From positions 1 to 39,541 of the IMG/VR virus record IMGVR_UViG_3300025326_000108: DNA of 39,541 bases; one strand, written 5' to 3'. The position numbers and the translations under genes were made by a program. This DNA comes from a virus. Under the pieces are notes generated by a model. That model was not told the DNA's origin, ran no database searches, and saw nothing but the letters and a program-made list of their open reading frames with translations. Each line of letters opens with the position of its first letter. Position 1 is the stretch's first letter. Below, one piece after another: positions 3,611 through 27,123 of the stretch.

Positions 3611-3795
3611 CCCCTGAGGAGCGCGCAGCTGAAGTAGAACGCGATCCAGAGAGACTCCACGCGCCCCACAGAACTCCGGGTCTGCATGAGCTCGTAGTTG
3701 CCCCAGAAGCAGCGCCAGAGCGCGAAGGGCAGGGGACGGCGCCTCAGGCGCACCACGAGCCTGTCTCCCTGGCGCTCCACGTACGGCCCCCGCAT
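3598..3795 (-). CDS. Small basic protein, 65 aa
   Basis: The ATG at 3795 overlaps the stop of the zinc-ribbon gene as TGATG and follows GGGAGGTG. A TTG 18 nt upstream is a weaker start. The N-terminus is Arg-rich and the rest aromatic (WRCFWGNYEL, LWIAFYF). It may be membrane-peripheral or a small folded domain. Not recognised. Confidence 0.5.
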   Translation of the reverse strand: MRGPYVERQGDRLVVRLRRRPLPFALWRCFWGNYELMQTRSSVGRVESLWIAFYFSCALLRGWWR

Positions 3796-3914
3796 CACTC
3801 GCACCTCCCGCAAACCCGCCGGCCCGTGAAGCTATCGCGGCCCATGGTGGCGGAGCAGTTGGGGCAGCGCGAGCGGACGAGCCTCCCGGGCCCGGGCCCC
3901 CAGAAGCCCCTCAA
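3795..3914 (-). CDS. Mini zinc-ribbon protein, 39 aa
   Basis: The TTG start overlaps the Gp37/Gp68 stop as TTGA. The product is almost only a zinc ribbon: CPNC, 14 residues, then CGRC at the C-terminus. Such minimal CxxC-x14-CxxC proteins fold around one zinc ion. The next gene starts in a TGATG overlap, supporting a real gene between two coupled neighbours. Function unknown; transcription or ribosome-associated roles are known for similar folds but are not shown here. Confidence 0.6.
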   Translation of the reverse strand: MRGFWGPGPGRLVRSRCPNCSATMGRDSFTGRRVCGRCE

Positions 3915-4819
3915 GGCACCAGCTCCTGCTGGCCGCGAGCTCGGCCCGGGCGATGGAGCGCAAGGCAGAAGTGGCAGAGCCAGGAGCCCCAGGGCCGGCC
4001 CGCGCGCTCGAACGGGTAGAAGGTGAGCGGCAGCGCTCTCGGGTCTCGGCGCCCGCACTCGCCGCACGCGAGCTCGGGCCGCCAGTCCCGGGGGAACTCC
4101 TTGAGCTCGGCCCCCGAGGGCAGGATCTGGAGCAGGAGCTCGTTGCGCCGCCCGCTCTGCTGCTTCCCGAAGAAGGGTACGCTGGCCTTCGCGCATTGGC
4201 TCAGGAGCGAGCGCGCCCAGCTCCACTCCATGGGGCGGAAGTCCGGCCCGCTCTCCCCGCCCACGATCACCCACCCGAGGTTCTCGGCGCAGGTAGCCTG
4301 GAGGTATCGCGTGAGGTCGAGCCGGCCCAGCAGGGGCTCCGCGCTCACGAAGTGCAAGCGAGCCGGGATGTCGAGCAGCACGGGAAGGCGCCGGTCGGCC
4401 ATGAGCTGGTTCTCCACCGAGGCGCCGAGCCAGACATTGGGGTAGCCATCGTCCCAGTCCGGGGGCAGGCACGGCTCCAGGCGCTCGACGCGCTTGGTGA
4501 GGAGCTGCCAGGTGAGGTTGGGCGTCTCCCGGATGAGCTGCCAGACCTCGGGCCGCCAGGCGTCGGCCTCCTCGATGAAGAAGTCGCTGATGGAGCAGCT
4601 GAACACGAGCTCCTGGCGCCCAGCAGCTGCCGCGCGCTTCTGCCAGCGCCTTGGCTCGCTCCAGTCCTTCGAGCGCAGCACCACGCGGAAGTCCCGCTTC
4701 ATGCGCGTGCGCACGAGCTCCTCAGCGTAGCAGTTCGCGCAGCCCGGCGAGACCTTCTGGCAGCCGATCCAGGGGTTGAAGGTGTGGTCTGTCCAGGAGA
4801 TCCCGGTGCGCTCGCCCAT
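3911..4819 (-). CDS. Phage Gp37/Gp68 family (DUF5131) radical-SAM-like protein
   Basis: The N-terminus TGISWTDHTFNPWIGCQKVS followed by PGCANCYAE is diagnostic of the phage Gp37/Gp68 (DUF5131) family, with a CxxxxxxxCxxC arrangement resembling a radical-SAM [4Fe-4S] site. Further family blocks are WQLLTKR, GASVENQ, SAEPLLG and WVIVGGESGP. ATG 4819 is preferred over GTG 4825 because GGAGG lies 8 nt before it. A C-terminal extension adds CGECGRR and CHFC, a possible extra zinc ribbon. The substrate is unknown; a modification reaction on nucleic acid or nucleotide is inference. Confidence 0.85.
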   Translation of the reverse strand: MGERTGISWTDHTFNPWIGCQKVSPGCANCYAEELVRTRMKRDFRVVLRSKDWSEPRRWQKRAAAAGRQELVFSCSISDFFIEEADAWRPEVWQLIRETPNLTWQLLTKRVERLEPCLPPDWDDGYPNVWLGASVENQLMADRRLPVLLDIPARLHFVSAEPLLGRLDLTRYLQATCAENLGWVIVGGESGPDFRPMEWSWARSLLSQCAKASVPFFGKQQSGRRNELLLQILPSGAELKEFPRDWRPELACGECGRRDPRALPLTFYPFERAGRPWGSWLCHFCLALHRPGRARGQQELVP

Positions 4820-4821
4820 CC

Positions 4822-5091
4822 TCACGGCCTCCGCTCAAGCACCCACGAGAGGAAGGCCAGGTTGGCCACGTCAACGGCCTCCTGCGCGCGTTCTCGGCCA
4901 CGAGCTGCCGTCCATTCGATTACTTCCTCCAGGAGGTGCCGGGTGATGGCCTCGGCGTCGAGCCCGTTCTCCCAGTCGAAATCCGGGTGCGTAACGCTCG
5001 TGGCGCCGGGGTGCTTGAGCTCGCGGGCCACGAATTTGGCCCGCATGGCCCGCCCGAACTCCGCCAACAACAGGTCGAGGACATCGGCCAA
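4822..5091 (-). CDS. MazG-like all-alpha NTP pyrophosphohydrolase, 89 aa
   Basis: The TTG start at 5091 is preceded by GAGGAGGAG, giving an 89-residue protein. HLLEEVIEW provides an ExxE pair and EAVDVANLAF provides ExxDxxN, the metal-binding pattern of MazG/dUTPase-like all-alpha NTP pyrophosphatases. The family cleaves (d)NTPs to monophosphates and pyrophosphate. In viruses it can adjust nucleotide pools or lower alarmone levels. It ends in a GTGA overlap region with the Gp37/Gp68 gene. It is one of two such genes in this operon. Confidence 0.6.
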   Translation of the reverse strand: MADVLDLLLAEFGRAMRAKFVARELKHPGATSVTHPDFDWENGLDAEAITRHLLEEVIEWTAARGRERAQEAVDVANLAFLSWVLERRP

Positions 5092-5093
5092 GC

Positions 5094-5744
5094 CTACTCC
5101 TCCTCGGGAGGCTGGTGGGGCCCGCGGTGCGGGTGGGCGAGCCTGCAAGGGATCTCGCCCTCGCGCGCCAGGATCTGGGCCGACAGGTCGGGCCGGTTGT
5201 AGAAGCTCGCTGGGTAAGCCTGGAGCCCGGGGGGCAAGCCCCCCGGGTTGTCCCCAGCCCCGCTGCTACCAGGCGAAGGGTGCTTTGCCCCTCGTGGAGT
5301 CAAAGCCATTGAGGGGCTCGGGGCCGAGGACGAGGATGGGCAGGGAAGCCATTGAGCCGTAGAAGCGAAGAACTCCCTTATGAAGCCTCGGGGAAGGCGG
5401 TCGCCCTTCTGGGGCCGGCCCGCTCGGTAGCGCCAGAGCTCAAGGCTTACGCCTTGCTGCCAGAAGTCCAGGGCCAGCGCCTCGATCTTGCGCCGCCGCA
5501 CGATCACGTTGTCGTTGCCCGCGTCCATGCAGACCTGTACCCAGCGCTGCTGGCCCCTTTTGACGGCGATGAGGTCGAACGCGCCGAAAAAGTCGTGCGC
5601 CTGGCTAATGGGCCGGCGCTTGCCGCCCGGCCCCGGTATCCAGACGATCTTGGCGAGCGCGCGCTCCACCCGGTAGTGCTGGGCCTCCAGCTCGGCCTTG
5701 GCCTTGCGCTCCAGCTCGTTGCCCTTTTCGCGGGCCGAGGGCAT
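5094..5744 (-). CDS. PD-(D/E)XK nuclease-like protein (Hjc-like), 216 aa
   Basis: The ATG at 5744 overlaps the TOPRIM gene stop as TGATG. The N-terminus EKGNELERKAKAELE followed by AFDLIAVKRGQQRWVQV has the layout of archaeal resolvase-type or other PD-(D/E)XK nucleases: helix with Glu, Asp strand, then a strand where E/QxK is expected. Here the last motif reads QVC, lacking the usual Lys, so activity is uncertain. The C-terminal ~80 residues are Pro/Gly/Ser-rich, and their codons include the perfect hairpin at 5226-5247. Likely acts on recombination or packaging intermediates with the TOPRIM protein. Confidence 0.55.
   Translation of the reverse strand: MPSAREKGNELERKAKAELEAQHYRVERALAKIVWIPGPGGKRRPISQAHDFFGAFDLIAVKRGQQRWVQVCMDAGNDNVIVRRRKIEALALDFWQQGVSLELWRYRAGRPQKGDRLPRGFIREFFASTAQWLPCPSSSSAPSPSMALTPRGAKHPSPGSSGAGDNPGGLPPGLQAYPASFYNRPDLSAQILAREGEIPCRLAHPHRGPHQPPEEE
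5226..5247. repeat. Perfect 10-bp GC inverted repeat
   Basis: CCCGGGGGGC-AA-GCCCCCCGGG lies inside the nuclease coding region. It resembles the terminator stem at 2058-2079 but has no T-run after it on either strand. It may be an intragenic mRNA hairpin or a mobile palindrome. Confidence 0.6.
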
Positions 5745-6619
5745 CAGTCCCACCCCCGGGTGAGCTTCTTGATCGTCTTGCGAGCTTCGTCCTGCTCGCT
5801 CGGTTCGGCGCTCTCGGAGTCCGCGAGGATCTCCTCGTCGATGCACTCCCGGATGGCCTCTTCGACGAGCTGGGTGAGGAGCGTGGGTTCGAGGGCCTCC
5901 AGTTCGGCCTTGCCCTCGACGAACTTCCCGCTGATCGAGCTCTTAGGGTTGCAGGGCTCCAGCTCGATCCCCTGTTGCTCGACCAGCTCCTTGGTGAGCG
6001 CGAGCCTCACGGTCTCGATAGGCACGCCGAAGCTGGCCAGCGTCTCGTTGAGCGTCTGCTCGATCTGGAAGCCCTCGTCGTCGTAGTCCCCGAGGTAAAT
6101 CACGCGCAGCTCCTCGTGCTCCTGGAGCACGCGAATGGCCCAGGGGCGGAAGTTCGCGTGCAGGTGGCTCTTGCCGGCCTGCCCCTTGATGGGGTAGATC
6201 GAGACATCCCACTCCTGGGTCGTGGTCTCGAAGTAGGGGATCAGCCCCTCCTTTTCCGTGATGAGCACGGGCACGATAGGCTGGCCGCGCCACTTGGGCA
6301 CATAGTAGGCCTCGGCCAGCCGGACGAATTTGGCGCGCTCGCGCAGGATGAAGCTCTCGGGCGAGTCGTCGCGCAAGAGGGGGCTGAAATCCCGCGAGCT
6401 ATCCAGCACGGCGTTCCAGGGCAGCACGCCCTGTTCGCGCAGCTCCACCAGGATGCGGTTGACCTGGTTGAAGGTCGTGCGGCTCTTCTTCAGCACCTTG
6501 GCGGCCTCGGCTCGGTAGGCGTACTGGCGCGCGTTGAGCGCGCCGTACTTCTTGTAGACGGTCGGGAGGAAGAGGCGCAGCCGCTCGGCCAGGCTGCCCG
6601 CCGGAACCTTCGAGCTCAC
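5744..6619 (-). CDS. Topoisomerase VI A / Mini-A-like TOPRIM protein, 291 aa
   Basis: The GTG at 6619 overlaps the previous stop as GTGA. The N-terminal ~100 residues contain NARQYAYRAEAAKVL and a winged-helix-like stretch, the position of the 5Y-CAP tyrosine region in Spo11/topo VI A. The TOPRIM domain follows: LITEKEG (catalytic Glu, about residue 120) and YLGDYDDEGF (DxD, about residue 178). No B subunit (GHKL ATPase) gene is present. This fits the Mini-A type of topo VI A-like proteins known from mobile elements. Probable role: DNA cleavage or topology during replication or recombination. Confidence 0.75.
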   Translation of the reverse strand: MSSKVPAGSLAERLRLFLPTVYKKYGALNARQYAYRAEAAKVLKKSRTTFNQVNRILVELREQGVLPWNAVLDSSRDFSPLLRDDSPESFILRERAKFVRLAEAYYVPKWRGQPIVPVLITEKEGLIPYFETTTQEWDVSIYPIKGQAGKSHLHANFRPWAIRVLQEHEELRVIYLGDYDDEGFQIEQTLNETLASFGVPIETVRLALTKELVEQQGIELEPCNPKSSISGKFVEGKAELEALEPTLLTQLVEEAIRECIDEEILADSESAEPSEQDEARKTIKKLTRGWD

Positions 6620-6972
6620 AGGCGCGCCCCCTTCTGGCTCTCGGCCTCTTCCCACGCCTGCACGCTCAGGAGGAACTTGAGCGCCATGGCCCCCACCTGG
6701 ATGGCCTCCTTTTTGAGCTTGCGGCGCCGCTCGGTCTGATCGCCCAGGGTCTTGCCGCGCACCTCGTCCCAGAGCTCGTCCAGCTCCTCGTTGAGCACGG
6801 CAAAGCCCCAATGGGCGTTGCCGAAGACCCGCGCGTGGCCCGCGGCGTTCGACTTGTCGTACTCGGCCAGGAGGGCCTGAAGCGCTCGGACGACCTCCTT
6901 GCGGGCGCGTGTTTCCGCGCTTTGGGCGTTGGGCGTCGTGATGAACATCTCGACGTCCAGCTCGTCTTTCAC
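6616..6972 (-). CDS. MazG-like NTP pyrophosphohydrolase, 118 aa
   Basis: The GTG at 6972 lies 2 nt after the upstream stop. HWGFAVLNEELDELWDEV gives the ExxE-type first metal motif, and KEAIQVGAMALKFLLSV aligns with the second helix of phage MazG-like proteins, which are often annotated by this pattern. The second ExxD is not a textbook match, so I hold the call moderately. It is located before the TOPRIM gene with a GTGA overlap. A role in nucleotide pool control is likely. Confidence 0.6.
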   Translation of the reverse strand: MKDELDVEMFITTPNAQSAETRARKEVVRALQALLAEYDKSNAAGHARVFGNAHWGFAVLNEELDELWDEVRGKTLGDQTERRRKLKKEAIQVGAMALKFLLSVQAWEEAESQKGARL

Positions 6973-6974
6973 GC

Positions 6975-7859
6975 TCAGGCCTCCTTGCGGTCGCGCTCGC
7001 GGAGCCGGCCCGTCTCGGTGGCGAGCCCCACGGTGGACGCGAGCGCCTGGAAGTCCCGGCGCGGCAGCGCGCGCAGGAAGTGGGCGGCCTCGTCGGGCAG
7101 CAGCTTGGGCGCGGCGCTCGTGTGGTTCGGCATCCACCAGGGCACCTCCTCGAAGCCCAGATCGCGCAGCTTGCGCGTGCTGGCTACGATGTTGCCGTCC
7201 GCCTTGGGCCCGTGGTGCGCCCTGTCCCAGATCAGGTTGGCGTTGTGGAGCGTCTGCGCGTAGGCCCAGTCGGGCCCGGCGTCGGGCTGGAAACGACCCG
7301 TGTGGGGCTTGGCGGGGCTTTCCCACCCGGCCCCAGGCCCTGGGCCGTTCTGGTGGAGATCCAGGCCCACAGGGGCTCCGGAGGGCCGTGGCGGGGTCAT
7401 GTCGCGAGCGGGGGACGCGGGGGGGCGCCCGGCGGGCCCATCCCGGGCCGGCGGCTGGGGCGATGCAGCCGCGGCCTCCTCCTCCGGGGATGCATCCCGG
7501 TTCTCGGAAGGCTTGGCCGAGGAGCCTGGTTTAGCCCCTCCCGCGTCATGCTGGATCTCCACCTCGGCCTTCACGCCGGGGGGGAGTTGGTCATCGGCCT
7601 GGCGCTGCACGCGCTCTCGGGCCTTGAGAGCCTGGCGGAATTCCTCGATGAACTTGGGGTTGGCCGTCGCTTCCTCCAGGAAGAACAGGAAGGGCTGGCG
7701 CCGCGCACCGTAGAGGTCGCTCACCAGGCGCTCCGGCGCGTTGGGGTTGCGCGCTCGGATGCCAGTCCAGAGCGCGACCTGTTGGCTCTCCCAGTAGCGG
7801 TCGAGGTGCTTGATCTCCTCAGGGCTGAAGACCTGCCAGGGGTCGATGCGGGGCGCCAA
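6975..7859 (-). CDS. Hypothetical protein with disordered linker, 294 aa
   Basis: The TTG start at 7859 lies 5 nt past the stop of the 117-aa gene. Residues 1-85 look folded and helical (YWESQQVALWTGIRARNPN, FLFFLEEATANPKFIEEF). Residues ~100-185 are a low-complexity Pro/Ala/Gly/Ser linker. The C-terminal ~100 residues form a second folded unit (DWAYAQTLHNANLIWDRA, ending in a region rich in Arg and Lys). No family recognised. Two domains joined by a long linker suggest a scaffold or DNA-binding protein of the early operon. Confidence 0.6.
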   Translation of the reverse strand: MAPRIDPWQVFSPEEIKHLDRYWESQQVALWTGIRARNPNAPERLVSDLYGARRQPFLFFLEEATANPKFIEEFRQALKARERVQRQADDQLPPGVKAEVEIQHDAGGAKPGSSAKPSENRDASPEEEAAAASPQPPARDGPAGRPPASPARDMTPPRPSGAPVGLDLHQNGPGPGAGWESPAKPHTGRFQPDAGPDWAYAQTLHNANLIWDRAHHGPKADGNIVASTRKLRDLGFEEVPWWMPNHTSAAPKLLPDEAAHFLRALPRRDFQALASTVGLATETGRLRERDRKEA

Positions 7860-7864
7860 GGCGC

Positions 7865-8218
7865 TCAGTCCTCCTGGGGAAAGTCGCTGGGCTCCAGCAG
7901 CGGGCGCTCCTTGAAGCCTACCTCACTCGCCCACTCGTCCTTGAGCTCGGGCTGGTTGTCGAGGTCGAGCAGCCGGAGCTTCGTGGCAGGCGGCGCGCCC
8001 TCGATGCCGAGCAGGCACCCGCCCTCCACCCAGGCCTTGAGCTCCAGGGGCTTGCGCGCCGCTTCGAGCTGCGCGAGCAGCCAGGCGAAGGCCCGGACTT
8101 CCTTGGCGTACCAGGGCGTCCAGGCGTTCTCGTGCTTGAGCTGTTCCGCGCTCCACTCCTTGAGCGCGTTGAGGCGTTCGTCGTCGGGCAGGCTTTCCAG
8201 TTTTTCCGGCAGCTCCAT
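7865..8218 (-). CDS. Hypothetical protein, first gene of the early operon, 117 aa
   Basis: The ATG at 8218 lies about 37 nt downstream of the TATA-like box at 8251-8259, which fixes the start and the operon head. The protein is acidic and helical at the N-terminus (LPEKLESLPDDERLNALKEW), with a central KAWVEGGCLLGIEG segment. Not recognised. Its place as first gene read away from the candidate control region suggests an early regulator, but nothing in the sequence proves this. Confidence 0.65.
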   Translation of the reverse strand: MELPEKLESLPDDERLNALKEWSAEQLKHENAWTPWYAKEVRAFAWLLAQLEAARKPLELKAWVEGGCLLGIEGAPPATKLRLLDLDNQPELKDEWASEVGFKERPLLEPSDFPQED

Positions 8219-8250
8219 GGCTTTGACCCGGAGCGGGAAATGCGAGGGGC

Positions 8251-8259
8251 CTAATATAG
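8251..8259 (-). promoter_or_regulatory. TATA-like box of the leftward early operon
   Basis: On the coding strand this reads CTATATTAG and is followed directly by GCCCC. It is centred about 37 nt before the ATG at 8218. The same TATA-then-GGCCCC arrangement recurs upstream of other operons in the window. Confidence 0.6.
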
Positions 8260-8273
8260 TTGCGCCGGAGCCT

Positions 8274-8289
8274 TCGCGCGCACGCGCGA
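8274..8289. repeat. 7-bp inverted repeat in the control region
   Basis: TCGCGCG-CA-CGCGCGA lies between the leftward TATA box and the rightward replication operon. It could be a protein-binding palindrome or part of an origin. The 8219-8482 stretch holds no convincing gene. Confidence 0.4.
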
Positions 8290-8313
8290 GCCGGGGAGTC
8301 GAGCCGCAGGGCT

Positions 8314-8326
8314 CATTTAGGGGGGC
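8314..8326 (+). promoter_or_regulatory. Candidate promoter motif for the replication operon
   Basis: CATTTAGGGGGGC on the plus strand mirrors the AT-box-then-G-run pattern seen at the minus-strand promoters. A transcript from it would carry the structured segment 8348-8399 in its leader. A second candidate AT-rich box, GCTTAAAG at 8434-8441, lies about 45 nt before the ATG at 8483 and would give a short leader. I cannot decide between them. Confidence 0.35.
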
Positions 8327-8347
8327 AAGCCCTTTCCGGGGCTCGTT

Positions 8348-8399
8348 GCGGCGCCCCGCTTTCTCTCGCGGGGAGGCGGGCGCCGCAGCGCCCCGCGAG
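8348..8399. ncRNA. Interleaved inverted repeats, possible pseudoknot leader
   Basis: Two 9-bp inverted repeats interleave: GCGGCGCCC (8348-8356) pairs with GGGCGCCGC (8378-8386), and CTCGCGGGG (8365-8373) pairs with CCCCGCGAG (8391-8399). The order A-B-A'-B' is the topology of an H-type pseudoknot with loops of 8, 4 and 4 nt. The stems could alternatively form one at a time, as a switch or as transcription-stop hairpins. No known RNA family recognised. Confidence 0.45.
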
Positions 8400-8479
8400 G
8401 AACCAGGATGGATGCCAGGCGACCAGCCCGAACGCTTAAAGAGGAGACAGAACCGGCGAACACCACCACCACCACACCT

Positions 8480-8518
8480 CCTATGAGACATAGGATAGGA
8501 GGAGGAGGAGGAGGAGGA
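8480..8518 (+). promoter_or_regulatory. Start-codon hairpin and GGA microsatellite
   Basis: CCTATG (8480-8485) and CATAGG (8489-8494) form a 6-bp stem that contains the ATG at 8483. It is followed by about six GGA units (8498-8518) and preceded by CCA repeats (8461-8472). The GGA tract could act as an oversized ribosome binding site for a downstream non-AUG start (ACG at 8522), or simply encode poly-Gly. Confidence 0.45.
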
Positions 8519-8911
8519 GCGACGAACCGCAGCCTCCACCTGAGCGACCGGGTCTGGCGCTTGATCCAGGCCAGGGGTTCGGGCCGCTATGTGAGCCGGC
8601 TCGTCTTGGAGGACTCGCGGAACGCCGAGGAGCTCACGCGCCTGGAGGTCGAGGAGCTCAAGACCCGGCTCGCCCATAAGGAGGCCGAGCTCGCCCGGCT
8701 CGTGCAGATCGGAGAGCTGGATCTCACCGGGGCCTGGAACGACCTGCTGGCACGGAAACAGGGCTGGCGCAACGAGCTCCAATTCCTGGCTTGGCTCAAG
8801 AGCCCGGGCGGCAAGGAGTGGATGCAGCGCTGGGAGCTCCAGGAACCCTCGGGCATCGAGCTCTTCCGGCAGAAGCGCGGAGCCCTCCAGGCCCAGGGGG
8901 CGCGCGCATGA
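8483..8911 (+). CDS. RHH-like DNA-binding protein with coiled coil, 142 aa
   Basis: The N-terminus NRSLHLSDRVWRLIQ then YVSRLVLEDS has the strand-helix-helix pattern of ribbon-helix-helix proteins. A charged helix follows (LTRLEVEELKTRLAHKEAEL), probably a coiled coil, and then a Trp-rich C-terminal part. The start is uncertain: ATG 8483 (poly-Gly N-terminus), ATG 8408, or a non-canonical ACG at 8522 that would begin exactly at the RHH strand behind the GGA tract. It overlaps the MCM gene as ATGA. Likely role: repressor of the operon or origin-binding partner that positions MCM; this is inference. Confidence 0.65.
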   Translation: MRHRIGGGGGGGATNRSLHLSDRVWRLIQARGSGRYVSRLVLEDSRNAEELTRLEVEELKTRLAHKEAELARLVQIGELDLTGAWNDLLARKQGWRNELQFLAWLKSPGGKEWMQRWELQEPSGIELFRQKRGALQAQGARA

Positions 8912-11031
8912 CCAAGAGCTACACGCTGGAGTCGGCCAAGCTGCTCTGGATGGAGTTCTTCGGCCTCTACGGGCTCGGCCACGCGATCCGGGAGGTCGCA
9001 CAGGCATGGCCCGACCGCAGGAGCGTCCGCGTCCCTTTCCGCGAGCTCGCGCGCTTCAGCCCCGACTTGGCAGAGTTCCTGGTTGAGCGCCCGCATCAAG
9101 CCTGCTACTCCGCCGACCAGGCCGCCTTGGAGGGCCTGCCCGCCGCGCTGAAGGCGCCAATTCACGTGCGCTTCGAGGCCTTCCCCTCCAACCTGGCTGG
9201 GCACTCGCCCCGCATCCGGGATGTTCGAGCCGCGCACCTGGGCAGGCTCGTGGCCCTCAAGGGCGTGGTGCGCAGGCGCTCGGAGGTGCTGCCCCGGGTG
9301 AGCGAGGCCGTGTTCCAATGCGTGCGCTGCGGCGCCGCTATTGAGGTGCCCCAGGAGGGCACGACGCTCAAGGAACCTCTGGAGTGCTACGAGGATCAGG
9401 GGGGGTGCAAGCGCTCGGCAACCTCCACGAAGTTCCACCTCCTCATGGGGCCGGCCTCGCTCCAAGATCCGTTCGAGGAGCCGCGCGAAGGACGCACGCT
9501 GCGGTTCAGCGAAACCCTGGATTACCAGACGGCCGAGCTCGTGGAGCTCTCGGAGGGCCTGCGCGGAGGCGAGGAGCCCCAGCGCATCCAGCTCCAGCTG
9601 GAGGACGACCTCGTGGGCCGGCTCAAGCCCGGCGACCGCCTCGTGGCCAACGGGACGCTGCGCGAGCGCCAGCGCGGGCGCCAGAGCGCGATCTTCGACC
9701 TCTACCTCGACACGCTCAGCCTTGAGCTGGAGCTCGACGAGGATACCGAGGACGCCTTCACGCCGACTGAGGTGGAGCACTTCACGCGCTTTGGCCAGCA
9801 CCCCAATGTGGTGGAGCGGCTCGCCAGCTCCATCGCGCCCGCGCTCTACGGGCTCGGGCCGGAAAAGGAGGCGCTCGTGCTCCAGCTCTTCGGAGGCGTG
9901 ACCAAGTTGCTGCCGGATGGCACGCGCGTCCGCGGGGACTCGCACATTTTGCTAATTGGAGACCCCGGAACGGGAAAGAGCCAGCTGCTGCGCTACATGG
10001 CCGCGCTCAGCCCCAGGGGCGTGCTGGCTTCGGGCAAGAGCGCGAGCGCCGCAGGCCTCACGGCAGCAGCCGTCAAGGAGGATGACCATTGGGCTCTGGA
10101 GGCCGGCGCTCTCGTGCTCGCGGACAAGGGTCTGGCCGCGGTCGACGAGCTGGACAAGATGAGCCCGCAGGACAGGGACGCCATGCACGAGGCCATGGAG
10201 CAGCAGACGATATCGGTTAACAAGGCGGGCATCCAGGCCACGCTCCAGAGCCGGTGCTCCATCCTGGGCGCGGCCAACCCGAAGTTCGGGCGGTTCGACC
10301 CGCACCAGTATTTCGTGGAGCAGCTCGACCTCCCGCCAGCGCTCATCGGGCGCTTTGACCTCATCCTCGTGATGACGGACAAGCCCAACAGGGAGTTCGA
10401 CCAGGCGCTTGCGGCCCATGTGCTGCGCACGCACCACCTGGGCGAGCGCCTGGCCGCCGGGCAGGCGATCCCGCAGGCCACGCCCGACCTTGAGGGCGTG
10501 GGCCCGGAGTTCATCCGGCGCTACGTCAAGTTCGCCAAGGAGAGCTGCTTCCCCGAGCTCACGCAGGAGTCGGGCGCGCTGCTCGCCTCCTACTACACCA
10601 ACACGCGCAAGGCCGGCGAGGCCGAGGCCAGCGCCGTCCCGATCACCGCGCGGCAGCTTGAGGGGTTGATCCGCCTGAGCGAGGCGAGCGCGCGGGCCCG
10701 TCTCAGCCCCAAGATCGAGCGCCAGGACGCCGAGCGCGCCATCGCTCATGTGCAGCGCTTCCTCCGCAAGCTTGCCGGAGAGGGCGGGGCGCTCGACATC
10801 GACATCATCGCGGCGGGCACGAGCCGGAGCCAGCGCGAGGCCGCGCGCACCCTGCTGGAAATCGTGCGCGAGCTCGACGCAGGAGGCGGCGTGACCGAGG
10901 ACGACATCCTGGGCAAAGCCACGAGCCAGGGCGTGGAGCAGGGCCGAGCGCGCGAGATGCTCCAGCGGCTCCAGGAGCAGGGGCAGATTTACGCGCCCGA
11001 CCGCCGCCACTACAAGATCGCCAGCAGGTGA
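8908..11031 (+). CDS. mcm: MCM replicative DNA helicase, 707 aa
   Basis: This is a full-length archaeal-type MCM. An N-terminal OB/zinc region carries CVRCGAA and a later pair (ECYEDQGGC), about residues 135-170. The AAA+ core has Walker A GDPGTGKSQ (about 350), Walker B VDELDKM (about 415), sensor 1 GAANPKFGRFD and the arginine-finger segment IGRFDLI (about 480). The C-terminal ~70 residues look like the usual winged helix. ATG 8908 overlaps the upstream stop as ATGA. It should unwind DNA 3' to 5' as a hexamer at the viral origin. No virus-encoded DNA polymerase or primase was seen, so host enzymes are probably recruited. Confidence 0.97.
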   Translation: MTKSYTLESAKLLWMEFFGLYGLGHAIREVAQAWPDRRSVRVPFRELARFSPDLAEFLVERPHQACYSADQAALEGLPAALKAPIHVRFEAFPSNLAGHSPRIRDVRAAHLGRLVALKGVVRRRSEVLPRVSEAVFQCVRCGAAIEVPQEGTTLKEPLECYEDQGGCKRSATSTKFHLLMGPASLQDPFEEPREGRTLRFSETLDYQTAELVELSEGLRGGEEPQRIQLQLEDDLVGRLKPGDRLVANGTLRERQRGRQSAIFDLYLDTLSLELELDEDTEDAFTPTEVEHFTRFGQHPNVVERLASSIAPALYGLGPEKEALVLQLFGGVTKLLPDGTRVRGDSHILLIGDPGTGKSQLLRYMAALSPRGVLASGKSASAAGLTAAAVKEDDHWALEAGALVLADKGLAAVDELDKMSPQDRDAMHEAMEQQTISVNKAGIQATLQSRCSILGAANPKFGRFDPHQYFVEQLDLPPALIGRFDLILVMTDKPNREFDQALAAHVLRTHHLGERLAAGQAIPQATPDLEGVGPEFIRRYVKFAKESCFPELTQESGALLASYYTNTRKAGEAEASAVPITARQLEGLIRLSEASARARLSPKIERQDAERAIAHVQRFLRKLAGEGGALDIDIIAAGTSRSQREAARTLLEIVRELDAGGGVTEDDILGKATSQGVEQGRAREMLQRLQEQGQIYAPDRRHYKIASR

Positions 11032-11037
11032 GCCACC

Positions 11038-13227
11038 ATGAGAACCAAACCGACGATCCGCACCGAAACCGTAGAGCTTGAGAGCCTGAAGCCCGCCGAC
11101 TACAACCCGCGCGAGATGCCCCAGCACGAGATGGAGGCGCTGAAGACGTCCATGGCGCGCTGGGGCCTCGTGGAGCCCATCGTGGTGAACAAGGACAACA
11201 CCATCGTGGGCGGGCACCAGCGCTGGTTCGCGGCCAAGGAGCTCGGCTGGAAGAAGGTCGAGATCAAGCGCGTGTTCCTCAAGGAGGACGAGGCCCGGCT
11301 CCTCAACATCGCGCTCAACCGCATCCACGGGCGCTGGGACGAGGACAAGCTCACGGAGGTCTTGGAGGGCCTCCAGGCCGCGGGCGCCGACCTGGAGCTC
11401 ACGGGCATGACGGAGCGCGAGCTCGACTACCTCTTGGATGACCTGGCCAAGGGCTCGGAGCTCTTGGACGAGCTCGCGGGCGGCTCCGCGGGCCGGCTCC
11501 AGCAGCGCTTTGGCGCCCCGCCCTTCACCGTGCTGGACGCGCGCCAGGGATACTGGCGCGACCGGCGAGAGCGATGGCTCGCGCTCGGGATCGCCTCGCA
11601 CGAGGGGCGAGCGGAGAACCTGCTGCACATGAGCGAGACCGTCCTGGAGGGCGGCAAGGGCCCCAGGGAGTTCAGCGATCCCTACCAGGGCGGAGACGCC
11701 TGGGCCGGCAGGGGCACGAGCGTCTTTGACCCCGTGCTCACCGAGCTGGTGCTCAAGTGGTTCTGCCCGCCTGGCGGGATCGTGCACGACCCGTTCGCTG
11801 GCGGTTCCGTGCGGGGCGTGGTGAGCGCGCTGCTCGGCTACCGCTACTGGGGCTGGGACATCCGGCCCGAGCAGGTCGAGGCCAACCGCGCGCAATGGCA
11901 GGCCATCGTCAAGGCGGGCCCGCGCGTGGTGCGCTCGGGCCCCGAGCTCCCCGACCGCCTGGAGGAGACGCCTATCCAGCAGGTGCCCGGGAAGAAGCTC
12001 TGGCTCAAGCGCGACGACCTCTTCAGCGTGGCCGGCGTCGAGGGCGGCAAGGTGCGCACCTGCTGGTTCCTCGCGCAGGGCGCCAAGGGGCTCGTGACGG
12101 CAGGCTCCCGGAGCTCGCCCCAGGTGAACATCGTGGCGCACATCGCGCAGCGGCTGGGCTTGCCCTGCCGGGCCCATGTGCCCTCGGGCGAGCTCGGGCC
12201 CGAGCTCCTCGCGGCCCAAGACGCGGGCGCGGAAATCATCCAGCACGCTCCGGGCTACAATACGGTGATCGTGGCGCGGGCGCGTGAGGACGCGAAAGCC
12301 CGCGGCTGGACGGAAATCCCCTTTGGGATGGAGCACCTGGCCGCCGTGAGCCAGACGGCCTCCCAGGTGCCTGGCAAGCTCCCTAAGGGCGTCAAGCGCA
12401 TCGTGGTGCCCGTGGGCTCGGGGATGAGCCTCGCGGGCGTGCTCGCCGGCCTGAAGTTGCGCAAGCTCAAGGTGCCCGTGCTGGGCGTCCAGGTGGGTGC
12501 CGACCCCACCAAACGCCTGGATCGCTTCGCTGAGGGCTGGCGCGACATGGTGGAGCTCGTGCGCTCGAAGCAGAAGTACGAGGAGGCCGTGGAGGGCCGG
12601 CTCGGAGAGATCGAGCTCGACCCCATCTACGAGGCCAAGTGCCTGCCGTTCCTCAAGGCGGGCGACCTGCTCTGGATCGTGGGCCGGCGCCAGACCGGGC
12701 GCGAGGAGCAGGCCAGTAGCCTGGGCAGCGCGGACTGGAAGCTCGGGGATGCGGCGCTCCTGCCCTTGGAGGGCCAGAAAGCCGACCTGCTGTTCAGCTG
12801 CCCGCCCTACTGGAACCTGGAGCGCTACTCGGAGCTCGCGGGCGACATCTCGAACGCCAAGACATACAGGCAGTTCCTCGGGCACTACGAGGTCATTATG
12901 GGCCGCTGGGCCGCGCGGCTCAAGGACGGGGCGTTCGCCTGCTTCGTCGTGGCCAACTTCCGAGGCGAGGATGGCGAGCTGCACGACCTCGTGGGCGACA
13001 CCGTGCGGATCTTCCAGGAGCACGGGCTGGCCTTCTACAACGACGCCGTGCTGGTGCAGCCCATAGGCTCGCTGGCGCTGCGCGTCCAGCGCTTCTTCCT
13101 GGCCTCGCGCAAGCTGGGCAAGACCCACCAGAACGTGCTGGTGTTCTTCAAGGGCAAGCCCGAGGAGGCGCCAGCGCTGCCGCGCGACCTCGTGAGCTTC
13201 CCCGAGCTCAAGGACGAGGAGGAGTAG
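11038..13227 (+). CDS. ParB-domain / DNA methyltransferase with nested PLP-enzyme domain, 729 aa
   Basis: Residues ~5-130 are a ParB-like domain (LKPADYNPR, then GGHQRWFAAKELG). Residues ~210-295 hold the first half of a DNA methylase with SAM motif HDPFAGGSVRGVVSALLG and GWDIRPEQVEANR. Residues ~305-555 are a fold-type II PLP enzyme resembling ACC deaminase/D-cysteine desulfhydrase: LWLKRDDLF, GGKVRT (Schiff-base Lys), VPVGSGMSLAGVLAGL (phosphate loop), DPIYEAK. The methylase resumes at ~563 with motif IV FSCPPYWNLERYS and ends with FRGEDGEL and NVLVFFKG. The frame is continuous and the insertion falls between methylase motifs II and III/IV. Six nt after mcm. Probably a DNA-modifying enzyme; the PLP role is unknown. 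Confidence 0.9.
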   Translation: MRTKPTIRTETVELESLKPADYNPREMPQHEMEALKTSMARWGLVEPIVVNKDNTIVGGHQRWFAAKELGWKKVEIKRVFLKEDEARLLNIALNRIHGRWDEDKLTEVLEGLQAAGADLELTGMTERELDYLLDDLAKGSELLDELAGGSAGRLQQRFGAPPFTVLDARQGYWRDRRERWLALGIASHEGRAENLLHMSETVLEGGKGPREFSDPYQGGDAWAGRGTSVFDPVLTELVLKWFCPPGGIVHDPFAGGSVRGVVSALLGYRYWGWDIRPEQVEANRAQWQAIVKAGPRVVRSGPELPDRLEETPIQQVPGKKLWLKRDDLFSVAGVEGGKVRTCWFLAQGAKGLVTAGSRSSPQVNIVAHIAQRLGLPCRAHVPSGELGPELLAAQDAGAEIIQHAPGYNTVIVARAREDAKARGWTEIPFGMEHLAAVSQTASQVPGKLPKGVKRIVVPVGSGMSLAGVLAGLKLRKLKVPVLGVQVGADPTKRLDRFAEGWRDMVELVRSKQKYEEAVEGRLGEIELDPIYEAKCLPFLKAGDLLWIVGRRQTGREEQASSLGSADWKLGDAALLPLEGQKADLLFSCPPYWNLERYSELAGDISNAKTYRQFLGHYEVIMGRWAARLKDGAFACFVVANFRGEDGELHDLVGDTVRIFQEHGLAFYNDAVLVQPIGSLALRVQRFFLASRKLGKTHQNVLVFFKGKPEEAPALPRDLVSFPELKDEEE

Positions 13228-25161: not shown

Positions 25162-26589
25162 TCAAATGGCGGTGCCGATGTACCAGGGGGTCGAGTCGAC
25201 GACCGTGATGACGGTCGTCTTGACCATCCCCTGGATCTCCACCTCGACCGCGCCCTCCTCGGGGATCGGGTGCTTGGCCGAGTTCGTGCGCCAGCCGTTC
25301 ATGGCGATGCTGAGCGTGTCGTTCGCTCCGCGCGTGAACAGGATCGAGGCGTTGAGCTCGGCGCTCGTCTTGATGAGGTCGAAGAAGGTCGAGTCGATGG
25401 GGTTGGTCGTGAAGCGCGCTTCGTGGTGCCTCTTTCCCTCGATGGCGTCGAGCGGCAGCCTGCCGTCCACGGCGAGCGTCTGGATGTAGTGCGCGAGCTT
25501 GGCGCCGTTCCCGATCTTGTGGCTGAACTTCACGAGCTTGGCCACCGTGAACCCGTTGAAGGTCAGGAGCCCCTGGTCGAAGTAGTAGGGCCGCGTCGAG
25601 GGCACGGTCAGCACCGACGCTGAGGCCAGCCCCTTGGCGGTGTCGCGCGCCAGGACGCCCACGGAAGCCTTGAGCGGCCCCTCTTTCTCGCCCGAGACCG
25701 TGAGCTCGTTGAACTTGAGCCCGCGCGTGTGCAGGACGAGGTCGGCCACCGCTCGGAACACGCGCTCGACGCAGAGCGAGGGCAGCCTCGTGATGCCGCC
25801 GAAGGTGTGCGTGTAGGGCGCGACGACCTCATTGACGGCCTGGCCGGTGTCGTGGTCGAAGCTCAGGGGCGCATCCAAGGTGAGCGTGTTGGTGACCACC
25901 GCCGTGATCTTGCGCACCTCCGCGATGTTCTTGAGCGGGCTCACGGTGAAGTCGATGCCCGAGCTCACCTGGAAGTAGTCGTTGGTCAGATAGCCGGCGG
26001 CGCTGGCCAGCACGATCTTCTTGGCCCCGGCCTTGATGGCGCCGTTAAGCGTCGTGGCGTTCGAGGGCGAGCTCCCGACGGTAGCCTCTCCGCCAAGCGC
26101 GCACAAGATCACGCCACCCAGCAGCACGAGGAATTCCAGCGTCTCCTCGATCTTGTGCGCGCCTTCGACGCTCGTGAAGCGGTCGCGGCCCGCTGCGGCC
26201 GTGTAGAACTCCTTGACATCAATCTCCTCCTCAAGGCCCGGCGCGCTCTCGACGACCCCAAAGAACTTGTCGGTGGCCGCGGGCTTGATCCCATAGGTCG
26301 AGATGGCGATCTTGTCGTTGGCCCCGACGCCGTCCGCGCTGAAGGTGGCCGCATCGCAGGTGAGCACCGTGGAGGTGCTGTTGGTCAGCTGGTATTGGCG
26401 GCCCACGGCCGTCCCGCTCAAGATCCAGAGGTACTGGCCCTTGAGCCGCCCCGAGGCGCCGAAGTTCTGCGTGGCGTCCGTGATGGTCGTCGAGCCGATG
26501 GTCGCTCCCGAGAGCTCGTAGTATTCGTTCTCCTCGACCCCATAGCTCAGCGGCGTGCTGTCTCCCTTGTAAACCCCGACGGTTGGCAT
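25162..26589 (-). CDS. Major tail tube protein, 475 aa
   Basis: ATG 26589. It is a large beta-rich protein: TVGVYKGDSTPLSYGVEEN, repeated strand patterns, KIEETLEFLVLL, and a conserved-looking C-terminus (PIPEEGAVEVEIQGMVKTTV). It sits directly before the chaperones and tape measure, where the tube protein is expected in siphoviruses. At 475 aa it is long for a tube protein, leaving room for a surface domain (around residues 20-110, TATA-like beta insert with SGRLKGQYLWILSGTAVGR). No sheath gene follows, so the tail is non-contractile. Confidence 0.75.
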   Translation of the reverse strand: MPTVGVYKGDSTPLSYGVEENEYYELSGATIGSTTITDATQNFGASGRLKGQYLWILSGTAVGRQYQLTNSTSTVLTCDAATFSADGVGANDKIAISTYGIKPAATDKFFGVVESAPGLEEEIDVKEFYTAAAGRDRFTSVEGAHKIEETLEFLVLLGGVILCALGGEATVGSSPSNATTLNGAIKAGAKKIVLASAAGYLTNDYFQVSSGIDFTVSPLKNIAEVRKITAVVTNTLTLDAPLSFDHDTGQAVNEVVAPYTHTFGGITRLPSLCVERVFRAVADLVLHTRGLKFNELTVSGEKEGPLKASVGVLARDTAKGLASASVLTVPSTRPYYFDQGLLTFNGFTVAKLVKFSHKIGNGAKLAHYIQTLAVDGRLPLDAIEGKRHHEARFTTNPIDSTFFDLIKTSAELNASILFTRGANDTLSIAMNGWRTNSAKHPIPEEGAVEVEIQGMVKTTVITVVDSTPWYIGTAI

Positions 26590-26616
26590 TTGTAGGCCCT
26601 CCTGTTGCGCGATCTC

Positions 26617-27123
26617 TTAGACGATGGACTCCACATAGGTTCGGAGCCGAACCTCAAGCACGGCGCGCCAGAACCCCGCACCGCGCGAGCTGAAGTCCTG
26701 GCCACCTTGGAGGAGCTCAAGGGCATCGTAGCCCGGCGGGCCCACCGTCTCGCTCGCGCCCGTAAGGGTCGCGGGCGCCTTGCGGTTGGCCATGACGATG
26801 CGCTCCAGCTCGCCCAGCATCTTGCCGAAGTGCGCGCGGCTCACCGTCGTGCGGACATCCACGCTGACCTGGCCCGAGCGCTTGGCGTGCTCGTAGTTGA
26901 TGCCGTAGCGCTGGAACTGGCGCGGCGCGCTCTCGTACAGGATCAGGTCGTCTCCCGGGGCCCCGGAGGCGCTCGCCGCCGTCTTAAATGTACCGGGCAC
27001 GACCTTGATGTCCTCCGCTGTGTGGAAGTTGGGCTCGCGCTCGTCCGTGTTGGCCTTCGTCCAGCCGGCCTCCAGGAGGGCGCGCAGCGTCACCACGGGG
27101 TCGGGCACGAGCAGCGCGGCCAT
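26617..27123 (-). CDS. Tail terminator / head-tail joining protein, 168 aa
   Basis: ATG 27123 overlaps the previous stop as TGATG. Fold pattern: N-terminal helix (VVTLRALLEAGWTKANTDER), strands with YESAPRQFQRYGINYEHAKR, then SVDVRTTVSRAHFGKMLGEL. Its position between the connector and tail tube suggests tail terminator, but sequence similarity was not recognised directly. Confidence 0.55.
   Translation of the reverse strand: MAALLVPDPVVTLRALLEAGWTKANTDEREPNFHTAEDIKVVPGTFKTAASASGAPGDDLILYESAPRQFQRYGINYEHAKRSGQVSVDVRTTVSRAHFGKMLGELERIVMANRKAPATLTGASETVGPPGYDALELLQGGQDFSSRGAGFWRAVLEVRLRTYVESIV

Follow-up and report, generated by a model that had tools for sequence, protein, structure and literature searches.

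The gene studied here occupies positions 11038-13227 on the plus strand of a 39.5-kb virus contig (IMG/VR record IMGVR_UViG_3300025326_000108; its whole stretch of 39,541 nucleotides is hereafter the window), which also carries genes for portal, major head, tail-tube and tape-measure proteins. It is a single open frame of 729 codons that begins 6 bases past the end (11031) of an MCM-helicase gene, and its 729-aa product is composed, in this order, of a ParB-like domain, the N half of a methylase, a PLP enzyme and the C half of the methylase. GC content by codon position is 0.70/0.44/0.94 and even across all four parts; an antisense ORF of 1156 aa that overlaps the gene has values of 0.90/0.47/0.71, a non-coding pattern. 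A preliminary description of this DNA had already read a ParB domain, methylase motif I, a PLP enzyme and motif IV in the frame, and the Pfam and family HMM matches together with the uniform codon-position GC bear this out.

The ParB-like domain, presumed to be a DNA/CTP-binding module, covers residues 4-154 (11047..11499, plus strand as for all features of the gene) in the family HMM, with the Pfam ParB_N match (2.2e-8) at residues 10-76. The Pfam N6_N4_Mtase profile falls into two pieces on the chain, one of them at residues 234-282 (1.5e-8). The N half of the methylase (residues 220-297, 11695..11928) corresponds to the C-terminal half of that profile (profile 170-218) and holds motif I, DPFAGGSVRG (residues 251-260, 11788-11817), which is common to relatives with and without a PLP domain. 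The C half (family HMM, residues 579-708, 12772..13161) holds motif IV, SCPPY (C588-Y591, 12799-12810), whose CPPY is present in 33/33 relatives with a PLP domain and in 97/98 without one. Between the two halves lies the fold-type II PLP domain (residues 304-553, 11947..12696; 311-553 in the family HMM), which is matched by Pfam PALP (PF00291) at residues 310-490 (6.8e-17).

Two other genes of the window deserve mention. The MCM helicase (8908-11031) is complete, with OB, P-loop and AAA-lid domains (3.1e-85), which is unusual for tailed phages of bacteria and may point to an archaeal host or to an acquired gene. On the minus strand (3911-4825) lies a DUF5131 (Gp37/Gp68-like) gene with a Cys-rich motif that looks radical-SAM-like by eye; it was considered as a partner of the PLP-methylase and set aside, as it is found in only 3/25 records with PLP and methylase, compared to 0/21 PLP-free ones.

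Structure of the split methylase

When residues 297-562 were removed in silico, the remaining chain could be aligned along its whole length (~445 residues, 39-42% identity) to relatives without a PLP domain, and with phiFL3A gp36, HCTV-2 gp11 and the PLP-free relative L085 it gave one alignment piece instead of two. The PLP domain is therefore cleanly nested within the methylase, as had been claimed from the frame itself. phiFL3A gp36 and HCTV-2 gp11 belong to phrog_498 and share the ParB domain, DPFAGGSVRG and CPPY with the window protein, but have 10-29 residues at the site of its ~250-residue PLP domain. The same spacing of the two halves is seen in 79/80 PLP-free relatives that encode both in a single ORF. 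The order of the motifs is opposite to that of beta-class DNA methylases, with the N half resembling their C-terminal part and the C half their N-terminal part; the PLP domain thus sits at the position of beta-class methylase termini, likely a site tolerant of inserts.

The chain is a member of phrog_498 (2.3e-106 over the chain), with a ParB domain followed by a methylase in which motif I precedes motif IV. Its CPPY departs from the canonical (D/N/S)PP(Y/F/W) motif IV of N6A/N4C amino-methyltransferases, and for this reason methyl transfer by phrog_498-type proteins is not to be assumed. Comparison of 33 PLP-bearing with 98 PLP-free relatives revealed no PLP-specific changes in motifs I and IV. 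The nearest folds to a model of L085 (pTM 0.58) are the Trm11/TrmN N2-guanine tRNA methylases; as modelled, the methylase fold is still amino-methyltransferase-like, nearest to Trm11/TrmN.

Fold and active site of the PLP domain

In an AlphaFold2 model of the whole chain (mean pLDDT 79) the ParB domain, the PLP domain and both methylase halves are confident; pTM is 0.47, and the spacing between the two active sites is not fixed by the model. The matches listed by a whole-chain fold search were PLP enzymes. Modelled residues 304-562 matched an ACC deaminase homologue (1j0a) with Z 24.3 at 3.6 A over 258 residues and D-cysteine desulfhydrase with Z 24.0, and a profile search likewise gave these enzymes as the nearest solved relatives (E ~4e-18), in accordance with the kinship suggested earlier. 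The PLP domain shares with them (1j0a, 1f2d, 4d8t) fold-type II, the Schiff-base Lys, a Ser and the Tyr-Glu pair. K338 (12049..12051), S360 and Y531-E532 (12628..12633; DPVYEGK / DPIYEAK) are counterparts of Lys51, Ser78 and the catalytic Tyr-Glu 295/296 of ACC deaminase, with P361 in the place of Asn79. In the HMM alignment the S360-P361-Q362 loop (12115..12123) stands opposite S78-N79-Q80, Pro replacing Asn. The domain differs from ACC deaminase and D-cysteine desulfhydrase in this S-P-Q loop, where they have S-N-(Q/H), in being ~80 residues shorter (~250 compared to ~340 aa) and in lacking a free-amino-acid context.

The Schiff-base Lys and GSG phosphate loop (G460-S461-G462, 12415..12423) noted in the preliminary description are both present and strongly conserved. 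Among 46 phage PLP proteins K338, S461, R325 and D327 are found in all 46, Y531 and W546 in 44, and E or D follows the Tyr in 44; Pro stands at the P361 position in 35/46, including Vi01 and Vincenzo, which have the S-P-Q loop. Neither the Lys nor the SAM-site motif DPFAGGSVRG is lost in the homologues. An insert with only a structural or regulatory role would agree with the location of the PLP domain in an insert-tolerant methylase loop and with PLP-free homologues keeping all methylase motifs, but the invariance of K338, S461, R325 and D327 and the near invariance of Y531 across very divergent relatives makes such a non-catalytic domain highly improbable.

Recurrence and coupling to methylases

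The nested order, described earlier from this one virus, was found by tblastn and viral-contig scans in 27 further records, among them the isolates Pseudanabaena phage Pam4 and Erythrobacter phage ZS04, which rules out an assembly join or a frameshift. The tblastn match in R6L covers 95% of the chain. Scanning with a PLP-only profile gave 51 viral contigs, and the methylase of this family is encoded in 51/51, in the same ORF or in another gene of the contig (50 from domain HMMs on the fetched stretches, and L058 from a family search of the rest of the contig); the seeds of the scan were nested or fused relatives, and shared descent adds to this count. The stronger case for the coupling of PLP and methylase comes from the range of architectures. 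Over all loci we counted 27 nested, three methylase-then-PLP, one PLP-ParB-methylase, 18 with separate genes in the same stretch and five truncated. A divergent PLP gene also lies downstream in 6/80 methylase loci that were picked regardless of PLP. Of the matches in bacterial genomes, L159 has the nested order, L158 carries PLP as a C-terminal fusion and L160 has a different methylase beside the PLP gene; a search for plasmid carriage of PLP-methylase gave no match. A literature search, whose coverage did not extend to Lee et al. 2018/2021 and Iyer et al. 2013, gave no earlier account of such a nested protein.

The survey of neighbouring genes showed mainly terminase-like recurrent genes (identified from sequence and annotated records), no recurrent third enzyme and no recurrent sulfur gene. 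The sulfur chemistry envisaged in the preliminary description has no support, and with no recurrent sulfur gene a link to phosphorothioation was set aside. It is conceivable that the PLP domain serves auxiliary metabolism, in the catabolism of D-cysteine, ACC or threonine or in supplying sulfide to phosphorothioation, and became fused by chance. Its ACC deaminase / D-cysteine desulfhydrase fold family would agree with this, as would a PAPS-reductase-like feature (1-939 of the ZS04 record) close to the nested gene of that phage. We consider it very improbable in view of the coupling to a DNA methylase in every contig of the scan, the several types of fusion, the repeated nesting and the result of the neighbour survey.

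Relationship to PLP enzymes of thymidine-hypermodifying phages

The nested PLP domain matches phrog_3650 with 2.9e-37 and phrog_7093 with 7.1e-10. The former, which includes Vi01_182 (2.5e-241), is the family to which the PLP proteins of Ackermannviridae such as Vi01 belong, and the latter includes M6 gp052 (2.2e-159). A Vibrio Ackermannviridae member used as query gave 346 phage records, mostly ViI-like. In a tree of 52 rows (LG+C20 PMSF) all phage PLP proteins, Vi01_182 and M6 gp052 among them, lie on one side of a branch (98/90) that separates them from bacterial PALP enzymes, including one that is ACC-deaminase/D-Cys-desulfhydrase-like. Vincenzo gp2, which is encoded next to a ParB-methylase, falls together with the proteins of Vi01 and Montesquieu (100/100). 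The main PLP clade mixes nested, C-terminal and separate forms. The nested PLP of ZS04 groups with PLP proteins encoded downstream of methylases (100/99), apart from the main nested clade (98/94), from which it follows that nesting at the methylase site arose at least twice. M6 gp052 is a neighbour of this ZS04/downstream-gene group (98/78), on a long branch that makes its position unsure. As judged from sequence, the PLP domain is kin to the PLP enzymes of the thymidine-hypermodifying phages ViI/Vi01, M6 and Montesquieu. It shares with the Vi01 and M6 enzymes the Lys, Tyr-Glu/Asp-x-Lys and a C-terminal FW(I)VG, and with Vi01 also the S-P-Q loop.

It is known that ViI-type DNA bears 5-(2-aminoethoxy)methyl-dU (5-NeOmdU) (PMC11721090). 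The M6-like cassette of SN1 consists of a pyrimidine hydroxymethylase, Nmad5, aGPT-Pplase1, a kinase, a radical SAM enzyme (rSAM), a PLP enzyme and aGPT-Pplase2, the PLP gene lying between those of the radical SAM enzyme and aGPT-Pplase2 (PMC9476957). In Montesquieu the PLP gene is immediately downstream of the aGPT-Pplase2 gene.

The genes around the two kinds of PLP enzyme differ. The Vi01 and M6 enzymes stand alone and are accompanied by a thymidylate-synthase homologue, HMUDK and aGPT-PPlase, whereas the window domain lies inside a SAM methylase without those genes. Among the hmU phages, aGPT-PPlase2 (phrog_3271) is present in Vi01, Vibrio 207E48.1 and Montesquieu and thymidylate synthase in Vi01, M6 and Montesquieu, and HMUDK_hel is found in 4/4 of those with a related PLP. 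In records with PLP and methylase, phrog_3271 is present in 0/25 and HMUDK_hel in 1/25 (the L050 contig, G013 25964-26788), and a thymidylate-synthase fold is absent from the six that were examined. Most viral contigs are fragments, in which the absence of a gene is weak evidence; in the window as well as in the complete phages Pam4, ZS04, Vincenzo and Alsa_1 we found none of dUMP hydroxymethylase, 5hmU kinase and aGPT-PPlase. Conversely, M6, Vi01 and Montesquieu have no phrog_498 methylase. The 5hmU route is thus essentially absent where the methylase is present.

Membership in the ViI/M6/Montesquieu clade and the constant presence of a methylase strengthen the link to DNA modification that had been proposed earlier. 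The part of that proposal in which the PLP domain attaches a group to the base fares less well. For the ViI and M6 pathways, Lee et al. reportedly described the PLP enzymes as decarboxylases that act on amino acids already joined to DNA. Since these relatives would act after the amino acid is on the base, trimming of a group already on the base is a likelier role for the PLP domain than attachment. In an alternative scheme, along the lines of the preliminary description, the protein is an ordinary N6/N4 (or N2) DNA methylase and the PLP domain makes a small molecule (ammonia, aminoacrylate or similar) from a free amino acid for the same base. The nearest solved relatives do use free amino acids and the methylase motifs are identical with and without PLP, yet the closest phage kin belong to pathways with the amino acid already on DNA, and the substrate-loop Asn of ACC deaminase and D-cysteine desulfhydrase is Pro in most of the phage proteins. 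We therefore regard this scheme as possible but rather unlikely.

A possible route to an amine-bearing base

From the results above we consider it somewhat probable that this one chain is a two-step DNA-hypermodification enzyme of a tailed phage, in which the SAM domain loads an amino-acid group and the PLP domain processes it. We build on the observed architecture, recurrence, coupling, homology, conserved active sites and absence of the 5hmU pathway, and from these we infer that the PLP substrate is DNA-attached and installed by the methylase domain, as well as the decarboxylation and the target base. The ParB domain would bring the enzyme to DNA, and the SAM-dependent domain of amino-methyltransferase type would load a base with a group that bears an amino acid. 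Still linked to the base, this amino acid would be the substrate of the PLP domain, with alpha-decarboxylation to a primary amine as the most likely reaction. Repeated fusion of the PLP domain to a SAM enzyme, with the 5hmU route missing, is most simply read as the SAM enzyme supplying the base-linked amino acid.

SAM can itself give up an amino acid in the form of its 3-amino-3-carboxypropyl group, and transfer of this group to RNA is known for class I SAM enzymes such as TYW2. In the most specific form of the two-step reading, an exocyclic amine of the base would receive 3-amino-3-carboxypropyl instead of methyl from SAM through the methylase fold, and decarboxylation by the nested PLP domain would then give a 3-aminopropyl base, independently of 5hmU and for the first time in DNA. 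We offer this form tentatively, as one possibility. Other phages bear aminoethyl, aminoethoxymethyl and putrescinyl bases, with which an aminopropyl base would be in keeping. Against the two-step reading speak the PLP-free methylases with the same motifs, which are much more numerous (567 or more candidate loci in the methylase scan); this type of methylase has no need of PLP and may do no more than methylate.

The same abundance, and the ViI and M6 relatives that lack such a methylase, also weigh against a further scheme in which the PLP domain itself loads the aminocarboxypropyl group of SAM by gamma-replacement, with SAM supply and base flipping as the main tasks of the methylase fold. Having two domains on one chain with one likely cofactor pool would suit it, and PLP enzymes that use SAM as a substrate exist, but we find it quite improbable.

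Returning to the reading of a SAM domain that loads and a PLP domain that trims, a parallel in principle is the CmoX/CmoA/CmoY system for 5-carboxymethylcytosine, in which a reactive handle set on the base by a SAM-derived enzyme is elaborated by a second enzyme and close to which ParB proteins often lie (PMC12783734). That system uses a C5-methylase with separate CmoA and ligase (PMC12783734). A Cx-SAM route was rejected for the proteins studied here, as CmoA (TIGR00740) is present in 0/25 records with PLP and methylase, although viral contigs may be fragments.

All phage aminoalkyl bases that we know of start from 5-hydroxymethyluracil and need several enzymes. A last-step PLP enzyme repeatedly joined to a SAM enzyme, with the 5hmU pathway missing, suggests that a single protein can produce an amine-bearing base, and the combination of ParB, methylase-type and B6 enzyme in one gene points to a compact, undescribed route for an amino-acid-derived DNA group. 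This gives a hint of function for phrog_3650, for the unlabelled phrog_12517 and for the very common CPPY ParB-methylases, and the carriers include cultivable phages (Pam4, ZS04/R6L and Vincenzo).

Variant architectures

Several loci depart from the nested form. Mycobacterium phage Vincenzo has the same ParB-methylase and PLP pair in two adjacent genes (gp1-gp2) and not in one nested chain. In L007/L031 (818-3162) ParB and methylase-PLP lie in two overlapping frames, perhaps by a sequencing frameshift or as a true split. L066 (5512-7779) has the reversed order PLP-ParB-methylase with an SPPY-type methylase. The ORF 6927-9908 of L040 (IMGVR_UViG_3300037264_006128) carries a second, Cys-rich insert after PLP, within the same methylase junction; it matches DUF3109 weakly and looks YkgJ-like by eye. 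L158 (8754-9641) and L046 (the C-terminal part of ORF 3636-5744) share a homologous domain of ~300 aa after PLP, which appeared amidoligase-like by eye, found no match in Pfam or PHROGs and was excluded from the evidence. In L160 (Bradyrhizobium sp. SRS-191, 5672-8735) the PLP gene adjoins an N6 methylase of Eco57I/TaqI type, a third type of partner for this PLP family, on an element that carries an integrase-like gene.
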